From Ignavibacteriota bacterium (lineage in GTDB: Bacteria; Bacteroidota; Ignavibacteria; UBA10030; BY39), in NCBI GenBank assembly GCA_003327435.1, contig QOQV01000006.1, positions 110,065 through 174,064 on the forward strand: DNA of 64,000 bases, read 5' to 3'. The notes under the pieces were generated by a model. The model was not told the origin of the DNA. It did not search any database and saw only the letters and a list, made by a program, of their open reading frames with translations. The position numbers were made by a program, and so were the translations under genes. Of this stretch, positions 1,815 through 14,202 are shown one piece after another (positions within the stretch are counted from its first letter, which is position 1; each line of letters opens with the position of its first letter).

Positions 1815-2648
1815 ATGAAAAAATATCTGAGATTTATAAAAATTGAACACACACTTTTTTCGTTACCATTGATTTATGCTGGTGTTCTTCTGGCAACAGA
1901 AAAAACTCCTGATATAGAATTGTTAATTTTAGTTTTAACTGCTGCTGTCGGTGCTCGTATCGTTGCTATGTCGCTCAATAGAATAATAGATGTAAAAATA
2001 GATCAAAAAAATATTCGCACAAGCTCAAGAGAATTACCCGCTGGGAGAATGAAATTTCTTGAAGCGATTGTCGTAACACTACTTGGTTTAACTGTTTATG
2101 CAATCTCTGCATATTTAATCTCAAAATTTTGTTTTTATCTATCACCAATTCCATTGGTCATTTTTTTGATATACCCTTATCTTAAACGGTTCACCAGGTT
2201 CGCCCATTTTGGAGTCGGACTTGGATTGTCTATGGCGCCCTTAGGTGGTTGGTTTGCTGTAAAGGGTAGTTTTGAAGACCTACATTTAGGAATCTTATTA
2301 CCCATCTTTACTATTTTCTGGGCTACTGGTTTTGATATAATATATTCCACACTTGACGAAGAATTTGATAGGAAAGAAGGCCTTTATTCATTACCTTCCA
2401 CAATCGGGACTTTAAAAGCATTAAAAGTTTCCGCTATATTACATTTCCTGGCATTTGTAATGTTGATAATTATTTATATTGTTTTATTGAGGAATATATC
2501 GTCCTTACCTTTTTTGATTTTCAGCGGGTATTTATTATATCTTGAACAAAAAAAAGCTTCGGATGTTGAACTTGCATTTTTCAAAATTAATGCTATAATT
2601 GGTTTTGTGGTTTTTTTAATGGTTTTTATGAAAGGTATTAAATTATGA
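1815..2648 (+). CDS. mqnP: UbiA-family prenyltransferase, probably menaquinone (MqnP-like)
   Basis: Polytopic; NRIIDVKIDQKNIRTSSRELPAGRM and DEEFDRKEGLYSLP Asp-rich motifs; within a futalosine-pathway cluster. Confidence 0.85.
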   Translation: MKKYLRFIKIEHTLFSLPLIYAGVLLATEKTPDIELLILVLTAAVGARIVAMSLNRIIDVKIDQKNIRTSSRELPAGRMKFLEAIVVTLLGLTVYAISAYLISKFCFYLSPIPLVIFLIYPYLKRFTRFAHFGVGLGLSMAPLGGWFAVKGSFEDLHLGILLPIFTIFWATGFDIIYSTLDEEFDRKEGLYSLPSTIGTLKALKVSAILHFLAFVMLIIIYIVLLRNISSLPFLIFSGYLLYLEQKKASDVELAFFKINAIIGFVVFLMVFMKGIKL

Positions 2649-3196
2649 AAATTGCTGTTGGAATTACAGGCTCGTCAGGAATTGTTTATGCACTTGAATT
2701 TCTTAAAAAGTGCCCTGCCGAAAAATATCTGGTTATATCTAAATGGGGAAAAGCTGTGCTAAAGGACGAGTGTGGTATTAATACGAATGAATTGAATAAG
2801 TTTGTAAAGAAACAATTTTCAAATGACGACCTGACTGCTCCACTTGCTTCAGGGACTAATAGTATAGATGCTACCGTTATAATACCCTGCACTACTTCAA
2901 CAATTGGTAAGATAGCATCTGGAATTGGAGATTCTTTACTTACACGGATGGCACAGGTTGCATTAAAAGAAAAAAGGAAACTTATACTTTGCATTAGAGA
3001 AACACCACTTTCTACTATCACACTTGAACAATGTGCTAAATTATCTCGTGATGGAGTGTTAATTATGCCAATCTCGCCACCGTTGTACTTCAAACCTAAT
3101 TCTGTTGATGAATATATCGAGGCATTTGTGAATAAATTAAATGGTGTTCTGGGATTATCCGAAACAAAAGGTTGGAGGTCTGAAGAGCTTGAATGA
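2645..3196 (+). CDS. ubiX: UbiX-family flavin prenyltransferase
   Basis: MKIAVGITGSSGIVYALEFL, IIPCTTSTIGKIASGIGDSLLTR, RKLILCIRETPLS; ATGA overlap with upstream gene. Confidence 0.9.
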   Translation: MKIAVGITGSSGIVYALEFLKKCPAEKYLVISKWGKAVLKDECGINTNELNKFVKKQFSNDDLTAPLASGTNSIDATVIIPCTTSTIGKIASGIGDSLLTRMAQVALKEKRKLILCIRETPLSTITLEQCAKLSRDGVLIMPISPPLYFKPNSVDEYIEAFVNKLNGVLGLSETKGWRSEELE

Positions 3197-5016
3197 AAAA
3201 TAATTTTACTGCTTTAAGAGAATTTCTAATTCATCTTGAATCAATTGGTGAACTTAAGCGCATAAAAGTTGAAGTTGATCCAGTATTGGAAACTACTGAG
3301 ATTGCGATTCGTGCAATGGCTGAAAATAAACCGGCTCTGCTTTTCGAAAATCCAAAGAATGCAAAATATCCACTTGCTATGAACATTTTAGCAAGTGAAA
3401 AAAGAATCGAATATGCACTTGGTTTTCATCCGGAAGAATTAGGTGAGAAATTAATAAATTTTTTTGATCAGATTTTTCCAGTGAAATTAAGTAAGCTGGC
3501 AAGCAATACATTTATTCTAAAGAGGTTCTTTTCCTCAATTCCTAAAATTAAAAATGGGGTCGCTCAGCAAATTGTAGAAAGTCCAAAACTTACCGAGTTA
3601 CCAATTCAGAAATGCTGGCCTGAAGATGGTGGTAGATTTATCACACTCGGTCAGGTTTTTACATATGATCCGATTACAAACAAAAGAAATGTCGGAGTAT
3701 ATCGCATACAGGTTTTTGATGAAGCAACAACCGGGATGCACTGGCAAATTCAAAAGGGTGGAGGTTTTCATTTTTATCAGGCACAAAAATTAAATCGACC
3801 ACTGGAATTGGCTGTTGTTTTGGGGACTGATCCGGCTCTTCTACTTGCAAGTGTTGCGGCACTTCCTGAAGGGATTGACGAAGTTATGTTTGCTGGATTT
3901 CTAAGAAGTAAAAGAGTAGAGATGACTCGTGCTAAATCAATTTCAATTAATGTACCTGCAAATGCAGAGTTTGTTCTTGAAGGTAAGGTTATTCCCGGAG
4001 AATCCAGATTAGAAGGTCCGTTTGGAGATCATTTTGGTCATTATTCTGCTGCTGCTAATTTTCCGGTTTTTCATATATCAACGATCACGCATCGGAAAAA
4101 TCCGATCTATCCAGGTACAATTGTGGGTAAACCACCTATGGAGGACAAATATCTTGGTGATGCAACACAACAAATTCTTGGTCCTCTAATTCGATTGATG
4201 CATCCTGAAATTAAAAGTATGTGGGCATATTATGAAGCTGGATTCCATAATCTTTTAGTTTTGTCAATTGAAGAAAGATACCAGAAAGAAGCTGTGAAAA
4301 CAGCCCTATCAGTAATTGGTGAAGGTCAGCTTTCTTTAACAAAATGTGTAATTACTGTTTCACATGATGTTAATCCAAAAGATTGGAATGCTGTATTAGG
4401 TGAAATAAAAAACAATTTTGATCCTCACTATGATTTTATAATGATTCCGAAAGTCCCTCTCGATACACTGGATTTTACAAGCTATAAAATGAATTTAGGA
4501 AGTAAAATGATTCTTGATGCATGCAAAAAGAGCGAAAGAAATTCTATCCCTTCTACTATAAACAATTCTTCCTCAAATGAACAACTAAAGCAGACAATTT
4601 ATCAGCTCGATAATAGAATTATGGATATGAATATAGTTAATGAATGTTTATTGATTGTAAAGATTAATTCAAATATTTTTGATCCTGGAAATCAAGATTC
4701 TAATGATAACGCTGGAAGAGAAATTCTACGGAAACTTTTACAAAACAACAATTTATCCAGTTTAAAGCTCATTGCTGTTACAAGTGAGGATGTAGACATT
4801 CATAACAGAGAAAGTTATATCTGGGGAATCTTTACAAGATTTGATTGTGAGAGAGATGTGCTTTTTAAAGAACAAAAACTTGTTGGAATTACGCCAGTAT
4901 ATTTTGGCCCAATGGGTATAGATGCTACCTGGAAAAGAGGTTATCCTTCTCCCTTAATGATGGATGAAAGAATTAAGAAATTAGTTGATGAAAAATGGGA
5001 AACTTATTGGAAATGA
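3193..5016 (+). CDS. UbiD-family decarboxylase, menaquinone pathway (MqnL-type)
   Basis: LREFLIHLESIGELKRI, LEGPFGDHFGHYS, KDWNAVLGEI; downstream of ubiX. Confidence 0.88.
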   Translation: MKNNFTALREFLIHLESIGELKRIKVEVDPVLETTEIAIRAMAENKPALLFENPKNAKYPLAMNILASEKRIEYALGFHPEELGEKLINFFDQIFPVKLSKLASNTFILKRFFSSIPKIKNGVAQQIVESPKLTELPIQKCWPEDGGRFITLGQVFTYDPITNKRNVGVYRIQVFDEATTGMHWQIQKGGGFHFYQAQKLNRPLELAVVLGTDPALLLASVAALPEGIDEVMFAGFLRSKRVEMTRAKSISINVPANAEFVLEGKVIPGESRLEGPFGDHFGHYSAAANFPVFHISTITHRKNPIYPGTIVGKPPMEDKYLGDATQQILGPLIRLMHPEIKSMWAYYEAGFHNLLVLSIEERYQKEAVKTALSVIGEGQLSLTKCVITVSHDVNPKDWNAVLGEIKNNFDPHYDFIMIPKVPLDTLDFTSYKMNLGSKMILDACKKSERNSIPSTINNSSSNEQLKQTIYQLDNRIMDMNIVNECLLIVKINSNIFDPGNQDSNDNAGREILRKLLQNNNLSSLKLIAVTSEDVDIHNRESYIWGIFTRFDCERDVLFKEQKLVGITPVYFGPMGIDATWKRGYPSPLMMDERIKKLVDEKWETYWK

Positions 5017-5048: not shown

Positions 5049-6896
5049 ATGGAAATCCTTTTTAGAGATAAATCTTTAATTCCAATCTGGAATAAATTAC
5101 TGAATGGCGAGAGATTAACTTTTGATGATGGCCTTGCACTTTTCAGGACAAATGACCTGATATCACTTGGTAAGATGGCTAATTGGTTCAGTTATCAGAA
5201 AAGTGGTGATGCGGTTTATTTTGTTCTAAATCGCAAGATTGAACATACAAATATATGTGTATTGTCCTGTAAATTTTGCGATTTTGCTAAAAAGAAAGGT
5301 GAACCAGGTGCATATGAGATGACTACCGAAGAAATTCTTTCCAAATTATCATCTGGTATCAGGGAAGTACACATCACCGGAGCAATGCCACCGGACTGGA
5401 AATGGGAAAGGTATCTTGATATAGTTCAATCTATTAATGATAAGTTTCCAGAGATTGATATAAAAGCATATACAGCTGTCGAGATAGATTTTTTTCATAA
5501 GAAATTTAAAAAGTCGATCGAGGAAATACTAATTGAGTTGAAGAATGCTGGTTTGAAAACAATGCCTGGAGGTGGTGCTGAAATATTTTCAGAGAGAGTT
5601 CGCCGACTTTTATTTAATCAAAAAATTGGTGAAAAATCCTGGCTGGAAATCCATAAAACTGCACATCGACTTGGTATACCAAGTAATGCAACTATGCTTT
5701 ATGGACATATAGAAACTCTTGAGGAAAGAGTAAAACACCTTATCAAGTTGAGAGAAGCTCAGGATGAAACTGGAGGTTTCTTAACTTTTATACCACTTGC
5801 ATTCCAACCTGGTGATACAGGTATTAAACCAAAAAATAATTTTACTTCCGCAATCGATGACCTGAAAACAATTGCAGTAAGTAGATTGATGTTGGATAAT
5901 TTCCCACATATAAAAGCGTATTGGGTCATGTTAACTGAAGAAGTTGCAGCAATCGCCTTAAATTTTGGAGCAGATGATATTGATGGTACGGTCGGTGAAG
6001 AGCACATCGCACACGATGCGGGTGCTATATCCCCAATGAAATTAGCTCAGGACCGTATAATCAAGATTATAAAAGAAGCAGGTAAGATTGCTGTGGAAAG
6101 AGATGTGTTCTATAATCCTCTTAAAATCTATGGAAGGAATATTATTGGTAAAATCCCATATTTAAATTCCATTCCTATTTATCATAATCTTAAAATTGAT
6201 TCATATTTTACTTTACCACTTTTCCCACACCGACTTGGTGAGATGATGAGCAATGGATATATAGATGCTGGTTTAATTTCTCTTGTTGACTATCTTAATA
6301 ATAAAGAAAAATTAAATTTATCAAGGTGGTGCCTATCGAGTCGAGAAAAAGTACAAAGTGTTTTACTTTTCTCAAAATATAAATTGGAAGAACTGGAAAA
6401 TAAAAAAATAGGCATCACAGACGAAACCTCAACATCAGTTAAACTTTTGAAAGTAATTCTTGAAAAAAAATATAAAATTAATGCTTTATTTGAAGAATTC
6501 CATCAACCGAAAATTAGCTTTCAGGAATTTGATGCTGTGCTTCTTATTGGGGATAATGCATTAAATAAATATAAAGCTCAAAATCCGGAATTTAATTACA
6601 AATTCGATTTAGCTGAAGAGTGGTTTCAATGGCAAAATCTACCATTCGTTTTTGCAGTGTGGGTAGAAAGAAAGGATTTGCTGCCTAATTTGTCTGATGA
6701 TATTATAAAAACTGTTGAGTTGAACATTCAAAAAAATTTTGATGAATTATCAGCTATTGTAAAACAGTACAGGTTTGGTGTGAAATTGACAGATGAAGAA
6801 ATAATCGAATATTTGAAAGGTTTTAATTACAAAATCGGTGATGAAGAATTGTCTGCGATAAGAAAATTTGAAGAATTAATAAGGGAAACGAAATGA
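5049..6896 (+). CDS. Fusion: aminofutalosine synthase (MqnE, radical SAM) + chorismate dehydratase (MqnA)
   Basis: N-terminal half has CVLSCKFCDF (CX3CX2C) and GLKTMPGGGAEIF; C-terminal half has IIGKIPYLNSIPIYHNL...FPHRLGEMMSNGYIDAGLISLVDYL and WQNLPFVFAVWV, typical of MqnA. One uninterrupted frame of 615 aa. Confidence 0.92.
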   Translation: MEILFRDKSLIPIWNKLLNGERLTFDDGLALFRTNDLISLGKMANWFSYQKSGDAVYFVLNRKIEHTNICVLSCKFCDFAKKKGEPGAYEMTTEEILSKLSSGIREVHITGAMPPDWKWERYLDIVQSINDKFPEIDIKAYTAVEIDFFHKKFKKSIEEILIELKNAGLKTMPGGGAEIFSERVRRLLFNQKIGEKSWLEIHKTAHRLGIPSNATMLYGHIETLEERVKHLIKLREAQDETGGFLTFIPLAFQPGDTGIKPKNNFTSAIDDLKTIAVSRLMLDNFPHIKAYWVMLTEEVAAIALNFGADDIDGTVGEEHIAHDAGAISPMKLAQDRIIKIIKEAGKIAVERDVFYNPLKIYGRNIIGKIPYLNSIPIYHNLKIDSYFTLPLFPHRLGEMMSNGYIDAGLISLVDYLNNKEKLNLSRWCLSSREKVQSVLLFSKYKLEELENKKIGITDETSTSVKLLKVILEKKYKINALFEEFHQPKISFQEFDAVLLIGDNALNKYKAQNPEFNYKFDLAEEWFQWQNLPFVFAVWVERKDLLPNLSDDIIKTVELNIQKNFDELSAIVKQYRFGVKLTDEEIIEYLKGFNYKIGDEELSAIRKFEELIRETK

Positions 6897-7972
6897 ATTT
6901 TGAAGAGATTAAATATAAAGTTATAAATAACATTCGAATTAAACCTGAAGAAGGTCTCTTTTTGCTTCAGAAAGCACCTATATTAGAATTAGGTGAGTTA
7001 GCTGCATTTGTCCGTGAAGTAAAAAATCCTTCACCATATGTTACTTTTGTTGTAGATACAAATCCAAACTATACAAATATTTGTACAATAGATTGCATAT
7101 TCTGTGCATTTTATCGTCATCCTGGTGAAGAGGGTGAATATACATATTCTGTTGATGAATTGATCCAGAAATTTAGAGAATCAGCTGCAATGGGAGTCAC
7201 AACAATCCTGTTGCAGGGTGGTGTAAACCCAAATCTGAGCCTGGATTATTACATTGAATTAGTTAATCGTACAACGAAAGAATTACCCGATATCCATCCG
7301 CACTTTTTTTCTGTTTCGGAAATAGTGGGTATGGCTGAAGTTTCCAGATTGAGTATTGAAGAAGTTTTAAGGAAATTATGGGATGCCGGACTTAGAACTC
7401 TTCCTGGTGGAGGGGCTGAAATTTTATCAAATCGCATCAAGAAAAAAATATCTAATAAGAAGGAAACTGCTGACCAATGGCTGGATGTGATGCGAACCGC
7501 ACATAAAATTGGCTATAAATCTACGGCAACGATGATGTATGGTCATATTGAAAAAGATGAAGATATCATCGAACATCTGGAAAGTTTACGAAAGTTACAG
7601 GATGAAACAGGTGGCTTCACAGCTTTTATTCCCTGGTCATTTAAACCAGGTAATACTCCACTTGAAAAAATTATTCCACATTATGCATCCAGTACGAGAT
7701 ATTTGCAGATAATCGCGCTTTCGAGAATATATCTGGATAATTTTGCTCATATTCAAGCTTCCTGGTTTTCTGAAGGGAAAAAGATCGGTCAGATTGCCCT
7801 TCATTTTGGCGCTGATGACTTCGGTGGAACTTTGCTTGAGGAAAATGTCCACGCTGCAGCAAATTATGTCAGCAAAACAAATACAGATGAAGTTATCAAC
7901 CTGATAAAAGAGGCAGGTTTTATACCAGCGCAGAGAACTACTCTATATCAGATAATTAAAATTTTCGAGTAA
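6893..7972 (+). CDS. mqnC: Cyclic dehypoxanthinyl futalosine synthase
   Basis: Radical SAM CTIDCIFCAFYR, TILLQGGVNPNLSLDYY, LRTLPGGGAEIL, adjacent to MqnE/MqnA. Confidence 0.92.
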   Translation: MNFEEIKYKVINNIRIKPEEGLFLLQKAPILELGELAAFVREVKNPSPYVTFVVDTNPNYTNICTIDCIFCAFYRHPGEEGEYTYSVDELIQKFRESAAMGVTTILLQGGVNPNLSLDYYIELVNRTTKELPDIHPHFFSVSEIVGMAEVSRLSIEEVLRKLWDAGLRTLPGGGAEILSNRIKKKISNKKETADQWLDVMRTAHKIGYKSTATMMYGHIEKDEDIIEHLESLRKLQDETGGFTAFIPWSFKPGNTPLEKIIPHYASSTRYLQIIALSRIYLDNFAHIQASWFSEGKKIGQIALHFGADDFGGTLLEENVHAAANYVSKTNTDEVINLIKEAGFIPAQRTTLYQIIKIFE

Positions 7973-12617: not shown

Positions 12618-13454
12618 TTATATTAATTCGATGGATTTTGTTTCTGGAATTAGTCCTTTTTTGTAAGCTGTATTAAACAGCAATTCAAGAGCGCTTCTAC
12701 CTTCTTCACCCATATCGATGGTTAAACGACTAACATACATTTTAACGAATTTTTCACCGAGTTCACGATTTAAACCTCTTCCGTATTTTAAAGCATAATC
12801 GATTGCTTCTTCCATATGGTTGTAACCATACTCAATGCTTTTCATTAGGCTTGAAGATATTTTTTGAGCAAGTTCTTTACCAAGATCTTTTCTCACAACA
12901 TCCAATCCAAGTGGTAGTGGTAATCCATTAGAAAAATCTTTCCAGTATTCTCCAAAATCTAAAATCTTATTAAATCCGCTATCGGCATATGTTAGTTGTC
13001 CTTCGTGAATTATTAATCCAGCATCGAACTCACCAGTCGCAGTTCTCTCCATAATTTGATCAAATGGTATATCTTGATTATTTATTCCTTCAGTAAAAAT
13101 TTTAAACAGTAAGGTTGCTGTTGTAAACCTACCTGGTGTTGCAACAGTTTTATCTCGGAGTTCTTCTAATTTTTTGAATTTTTTAGATATTAAAACTGGA
13201 CCGTATCCTTCTCCCATACTCGCTCCTGTGCGCATTATCCAGTATTTATCACTGACATATGGGAAGATATGTGCACTTATTGCTGTGATTTCAAGTTCTC
13301 CTCTTAAGGCTCTCTCGTTTAAAGTTTGTATATCTTCGAGAATGTGTTCAACTTTGAAATTGTCAATTTTTATTTTTCCAGTTGCAAGTCCGTAAAACAT
13401 AAAGGCGTCATCGGGATCAGGACTATGACCAATTTTTAATATTTTATTATTCAT
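12618..13454 (-). CDS. mqnD: 1,4-dihydroxy-6-naphthoate synthase
   Basis: ILKIGHSPDPDDAFMFYGLATGKI, GYGPVLISKK, GLIIHEGQLTY, PLGLDVVRKDL; ATG at 13454 preferred. Confidence 0.92.
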   Translation of the reverse strand: MNNKILKIGHSPDPDDAFMFYGLATGKIKIDNFKVEHILEDIQTLNERALRGELEITAISAHIFPYVSDKYWIMRTGASMGEGYGPVLISKKFKKLEELRDKTVATPGRFTTATLLFKIFTEGINNQDIPFDQIMERTATGEFDAGLIIHEGQLTYADSGFNKILDFGEYWKDFSNGLPLPLGLDVVRKDLGKELAQKISSSLMKSIEYGYNHMEEAIDYALKYGRGLNRELGEKFVKMYVSRLTIDMGEEGRSALELLFNTAYKKGLIPETKSIELI

Positions 13455-13464
13455 TTTCACCTCA

Positions 13465-14202
13465 CTATTTTGTTCCAACATAAACTGTTACGATTCCAAA
13501 TGTTAATGTTTTGTGATAAACATCTCTGAAACCAATTTCTTCTAAAATGTTATTTAACTCTTTTCCTTCTGGGAATTGCATTACTGTATTGGGTAAGTAT
13601 GTATACGCAATTTTATTTTTGGATATAATTTTTCCTATCAATGGTAGTATTTTTTGAAAATAAAAAAAGTATAACTTTCTGAACAATAAATGTTTAGGCT
13701 TAGAAAACTCAAGTATAATAAACTTTCCATTTTTTGTAAGTACTCGATATATCTCAGCTAACCCTTTTTTTAAATTGTTAAAATTTCTTATTCCAAAGGC
13801 GACTATAGAAGCTTGAAAGGATTCATCGTTAAACGGTAAATTTTCTGCATCTGCTATTTTGAAAGCGATTTTATCTTCAAAATTTGCCTTTCTAATCTTA
13901 TTTCTTGCAATTTCTAACATATTTTCGGCGATATCAATGCCTATAACTGATTTACAACCGTATTTTGCGGCTACTATAGAAAAATCTCCAGTTCCACAAG
14001 CAACATCTAAAATCTTGTCTGGTACAGGCTGTCCTAAAAACTTTATTGCTTTCCTTCGCCAATAAAAATCCATCCCACCGCTTAAAAAGTGATTTAAAAA
14101 ATCATAAGTTCTTGCGATGGAATTAAATAGACTTGCTACCTGAGATGTCGAGTATTTCTTATCCAATGAATTGATAATACAATTTGATTTTAAGATAACC
14201 AA
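13465..14202 (-). CDS. menG: Demethylmenaquinone methyltransferase (UbiE/MenG)
   Basis: VASLFNSIARTYDFLNHFLSGGMDFYWRRKAIKFL, LDVACGTGDFSI, AFGIRNFNNLKKGLAEIYRVL, LTFGIVTVYVGTK. Exact start uncertain. Confidence 0.93.
   Translation of the reverse strand: MVILKSNCIINSLDKKYSTSQVASLFNSIARTYDFLNHFLSGGMDFYWRRKAIKFLGQPVPDKILDVACGTGDFSIVAAKYGCKSVIGIDIAENMLEIARNKIRKANFEDKIAFKIADAENLPFNDESFQASIVAFGIRNFNNLKKGLAEIYRVLTKNGKFIILEFSKPKHLLFRKLYFFYFQKILPLIGKIISKNKIAYTYLPNTVMQFPEGKELNNILEEIGFRDVYHKTLTFGIVTVYVGTK

Follow-up and report, generated by a model that had tools for sequence, protein, structure and literature searches.

Within the window (the whole stretch of 64,000 nucleotides analysed here), positions 5049-6896 of the forward strand hold an mqnE-mqnA fusion gene, a single frame that begins with ATG, runs without internal stop through 615 open codons and encodes a protein of 615 amino acids with matches to both TIGR03700 and PF02621. 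The aminofutalosine synthase (MqnE) module spans residues 1 to about 360 (5049-6128) and the chorismate dehydratase (MqnA) module residues 362 to about 612 (6132-6893), with no linker between them. The boundary falls at residue 361/362, close to nucleotide 6130, and the joint is devoid of any in-frame ATG, the in-frame GTG codons being those at 6093 and 6105. The preliminary description of this DNA had announced MqnE and MqnA in one 615-residue frame with a boundary near 6130, and both points are borne out by the single open reading frame and the two profile matches. Its statement that the modules are complete holds as well, and each module carries the key residues of its family.

The N-terminal assignment is based on the profile, the cluster cysteines and the fold. 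Residues 14-357 match TIGR03700, the MqnE model, with 468.5 bits for a curated cut-off of 434.55, and over the N-terminal 360 residues or so this model outscores the related models for MqnC and CofH. The closest solved relative by sequence is the MqnE structure 6xi9, and the CX3CX2C motif of radical-SAM enzymes is formed by C70, C74 and C77 (about nucleotides 5256-5279), which are invariant in 36 aligned sequences.

In the C-terminal module, the PF02621 match covers residues 366-612 and scores 163 bits (cut-off 26), and the closest solved relative by sequence is the chorismate dehydratase SCO4506. The deposited variants of SCO4506 are mutated at Asn (7an6 and 7an7), at Ser (7an8) or at Tyr (7an9), and the window protein retains the whole trio as Asn373 (nucleotide 6165), Ser437 (6357) and Tyr588 (6810); the preliminary description had asked whether MqnA active-site residues were missing on an alignment, and these three are in place. 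Among 39 aligned fused sequences, the Asn and the Ser are each found in 39 and the Tyr in 35, the other four having Phe at the Tyr position. In a tree of the PF02621 family, the fused domains group inside the MqnA sequences (support 99/96), and MqnD forms a separate clade (100/100).

Genes flanking the fusion encode further proteins of menaquinone biosynthesis. Upstream, on the same strand, lie a UbiA-type, MqnP-like prenyltransferase (1815-2648; over the cut-off of TIGR01475 and under the MqnP cut-offs), a UbiX-type flavin prenyltransferase (2645-3196; TIGR00421, over cut-off) and a UbiD-type menaquinone biosynthesis decarboxylase (3193-5016; TIGR03701, 510.3 bits, over cut-off). Immediately downstream, mqnC (6893-7972; TIGR03699, 475.7 bits, over cut-off) overlaps the stop of the fusion by 4 nucleotides. 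On the reverse strand are found mqnD (12618-13481; PF02621, 258 bits), which falls in the MqnD clade and has Pro at the position of the MqnA Ser, and a gene for a UbiE/MenG-type methyltransferase (13465-14202; TIGR01934, over cut-off). This company of mqnC, mqnD and genes of the UbiA, UbiX, UbiD and UbiE types places the fusion gene in the futalosine pathway. We also considered MqnD as the identity of the C-terminal half and rejected it, because a separate mqnD is present at 12618-13481, because the motif differs (GKIPYLNSIP in the fusion, HSPDPDDAF in MqnD) and because the tree groups the half with MqnA.

More than 80 genomes from a single, largely uncultured bacterial lineage keep the fused MqnE-MqnA protein. 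The order to which the window belongs was represented by 98 genomes, 70 of which (counted by eye) have an essentially complete match to the MqnA domain, at E <= 1.8e-56. These matches sit in frames of 526-718 amino acids in 69 of the 70 genomes, and in the last one (G462) in a frame of 372 amino acids that is apparently ended by a contig edge. In an even sample of the class, three families (f14, f59 and f60) have frames of 626-728 amino acids, and the members read in each are arranged as MqnE then MqnA; families f9 and f61 of the same class encode an unfused MqnA of 273-374 amino acids, and elsewhere in the phylum the sampled genomes have PF02621 frames of 244-392 amino acids. Among 80 loci drawn from genome records, 31 carry both modules in one frame, nearly all of them in metagenome-assembled genomes (MAGs) named Ignavibacteria, Bacteroidota/Bacteroidetes or similar. 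Frame length alone is insufficient for calling an MqnE-MqnA fusion, since the long frames of family f12 proved to be MqnA-MqnC.

A base error at the boundary, arising in sequencing or assembly, might make two genes look like one frame, and the frames of the MqnA part are indeed broken in two relatives (L063 and G434). However, an identical, intact joint of constant length recurs in dozens of independently assembled genomes: of the 23 fused proteins in which the spacing between the conserved ERD motif of MqnE and the PYLN motif of MqnA is measurable, 21 have 17 residues and the other two, which are sisters, have 20. Because of this conservation an artefact is rejected, its probability being practically negligible. 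The gene at 5049-6896 is a genuine, old and conserved fusion that combines known enzymes for two consecutive steps, and not a new kind of enzyme. No description of an MqnE-MqnA fusion was found in the open-licence papers to which the literature search was limited.

In a tree of the MqnE domain, the fused forms make up a single branch (98/93), in which the sole unfused row is L063, whose frame is interrupted midway through the MqnA domain and whose sister L117 is intact. The fused forms are still one clade (98/96) when f14, f59 and f60 are added, and the MqnA-family tree likewise unites the fused domains (99/96). The co-occurrence of MqnE and MqnA on single proteins, proposed beforehand as a check, is found in the order and in further families of the class, with the fused forms as one clade in both trees. 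Both trees are consistent with a single origin of the fusion, which would be their simplest reading. The nearest unfused sequences in the MqnE tree belong to loci of Chloroflexota, Latescibacterota and Acidobacteriota that carry mqnE, mqnA and mqnC one after another, sometimes overlapping. The MqnA tree recovers the same unfused neighbourhood, with L083 adjoining the fused clade at a weaker support (93/70). At L065, the start of mqnA lies within the final codons of mqnE (ATGACAATTAG). An mqnEAC operon has been reported for some Firmicutes (PMC4746308). As judged from these trees and loci, adjacent or overlapping mqnE-mqnA-mqnC genes are the likely precursor of the fusion, and a frameshift or the loss of a stop between mqnE and mqnA in such an operon would yield a join without linker.

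Another join was encountered in the same class. In four genomes of family f12 (G487, G128, G492 and G483), MqnA is joined to MqnC, with MqnA first, in frames of 689-738 amino acids whose MqnC half retains the cluster motif (L196, 1653-3680, reverse strand; L197, 2152-4365, forward; L198, 2167-4164, forward; L199, 1817-3958, reverse). The sole other TIGR03700 match of these genomes is a weak one to a divergent MqnE-like protein, and the two copies read (L196, 3897-4973; L198, 920-2143) are without CX3CX2C. An MqnA-MqnC-like frame of 588 amino acids was also seen in a MAG named Proteobacteria bacterium (L086, 2168-3934, forward strand); its radical-SAM half gives no match to the Radical_SAM Pfam model and by eye is without the cluster cysteines, which are retained by the mqnE product encoded just before it. 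Since both MqnE-MqnA and MqnA-MqnC joins are found, the mqnA of the E-A-C order has been joined to either of its neighbours.

The genome of the window encodes, besides the fusion and mqnD, a third PF02621 protein of 265 amino acids (C15:112442-113158; locus G000:C15:112370-113164, L003, L125). The preliminary description had named an additional stand-alone mqnA in the same genome as a finding that would speak against its reading; a further PF02621 protein does exist, but it is probably not MqnA, as the Asn is absent, the clade is separate and the gene is located behind rplS. This paralogue is found in the window genome and most of the order, and in nearly all loci read (also L126-L144) it is directly downstream of trmD-rplS. 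One might suppose that the rplS-adjacent protein supplies the chorismate dehydratase and that the MqnA part of the fusion is left as a relic or serves in regulation or binding, a supposition to which the wide presence of the paralogue in the order lends some weight, as does the fact that its best relative in the PDB is also MqnA. On the contrary, the paralogue has Tyr, Phe or Ser in place of the MqnA Asn in 21 of 21 rows (with V, T, A or S at the Ser position), and the fused domain holds both Asn and Ser in every one of its 39 rows. Moreover, the paralogue forms a clade of its own (100/100), nearly always behind trmD-rplS, and it persists in three genomes (G097, G120 and G240) for which the search with PF02621 gave no mqnD and no fusion. 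The supposition is therefore very improbable. By its residues, clade and location, the rplS-linked paralogue is probably not a chorismate dehydratase and probably acts outside the futalosine pathway; it therefore does not undermine the reading of the fused domain as MqnA.

Following the steps assigned to the fusion, aminofutalosine has to be cleaved, and no MTAN or futalosine hydrolase over cut-off was found in the 98 genomes of the order, the window genome included. The only two PF01048 proteins of the window genome both resemble purine nucleoside phosphorylases. A nucleoside hydrolase (PF01156) was considered as a replacement, and none is present in the window genome. The genome and order thus have no recognised aminofutalosine-cleaving gene, which weighs against the claim of a complete pathway. 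MTAN is present in the fused family f14, so its absence elsewhere does not go hand in hand with the fusion.

Between the fusion and mqnC, families f2 and f4 encode a protein of about 270-353 amino acids with a conserved N-terminal region and a C-terminal TIR-like domain (PF10137) (L039, 7861-8691; same place in L040, L043-L048, L051, L055 and L079). No PF10137 match was obtained in the window genome, f3 or f56, and one f5 genome gave weak C-terminal matches only. As a general missing nucleosidase this protein is ruled out by its patchy matches and by its presence in three genomes devoid of the fusion (G097, G240 and G416).

The product that MqnA forms from chorismate, 3-[(1-carboxyvinyl)oxy]benzoate, serves as the substrate of MqnE. 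The family assignments agree with the earlier suggestion that consecutive steps of the pathway have been joined, and also that the order of the domains, with MqnE N-terminal and MqnA C-terminal, is opposite to that of the reactions. From what is established for the separate MqnA and MqnE enzymes, we infer that the C-terminal domain would form this enol ether by dehydrating chorismate and that the N-terminal radical-SAM domain would link it to the 5'-deoxyadenosyl moiety of SAM, yielding aminofutalosine with loss of CO2. The fusion protein is thus very probably bifunctional and catalyses both of the first two steps of the futalosine (Mqn) pathway, an alternative route to menaquinone (vitamin K2), a conclusion in which we have high confidence and which draws on the frame, the families, the key residues, the gene context, the single clade and the constant length of the joint.

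A structure model of the fusion built from 36 aligned sequences reached a mean pLDDT of 88.9 and a pTM of 0.89, and Foldseek aligned one part of it with the MqnE of Pedobacter heparinus (6xig/6xi9) and the other with MqnA structures. The constant joint length and the pTM fit a fixed arrangement of the two domains, and the advantage of the fusion may reside in this arrangement together with a 1:1 supply of both activities. The protein might even pass the enol-ether product of MqnA straight to the radical-SAM site, providing a channelled entry to the pathway with fixed geometry throughout the lineage; we regard this as rather unlikely. Alternatively, the same two activities may be present with no coupling function, two adjacent genes having been joined neutrally and the harmless product retained. 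Separate enzymes run both steps in most bacteria and the adjacency of the mqnEAC genes makes joining easy, yet there is no clear reversion inside the fused clade and the length of the joint is constant, both of which suggest constraint and do not prove it. We give such a neutral join slightly less than an even chance.

At the genomic level, the fusion argues strongly that MqnA and MqnE act together in these uncultured bacteria, and, as one expressible protein, it lets one test whether chorismate dehydration and a radical-SAM reaction are coupled. Within the class it serves as a clean clade marker. In metagenomes, where best-hit annotation may label it MqnE alone and overlook MqnA, it also marks the futalosine route.

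Among known systems, CofGH is a bifunctional FO synthase. Both CofGH (NF006687) and the present protein fuse a radical-SAM domain of the CofH/MqnC/MqnE type with a pathway partner, but CofGH consists of two radical-SAM domains, whereas here a radical-SAM domain is combined with a dehydratase. Compared with MqnE (TIGR03700; P. heparinus 6xi9 and 6xig), the profile, the invariant cysteines and the fold are alike, and the fusion differs in bearing a second enzyme on its C terminus. Similarly, PF02621, the Asn/Ser/Tyr residues and the fold are shared with MqnA (SCO4506, 7ahr; Deinococcus radiodurans, 6o9a), except that the fused domain lacks a separate start codon and is the C-terminal part of a longer protein. 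Finally, the mqnEAC operon of some Firmicutes (PMC4746308) and the present loci from Chloroflexota, Latescibacterota and Acidobacteriota contain the identical genes in the identical order, but as separate adjacent or overlapping genes, whereas here mqnE and mqnA form one frame.
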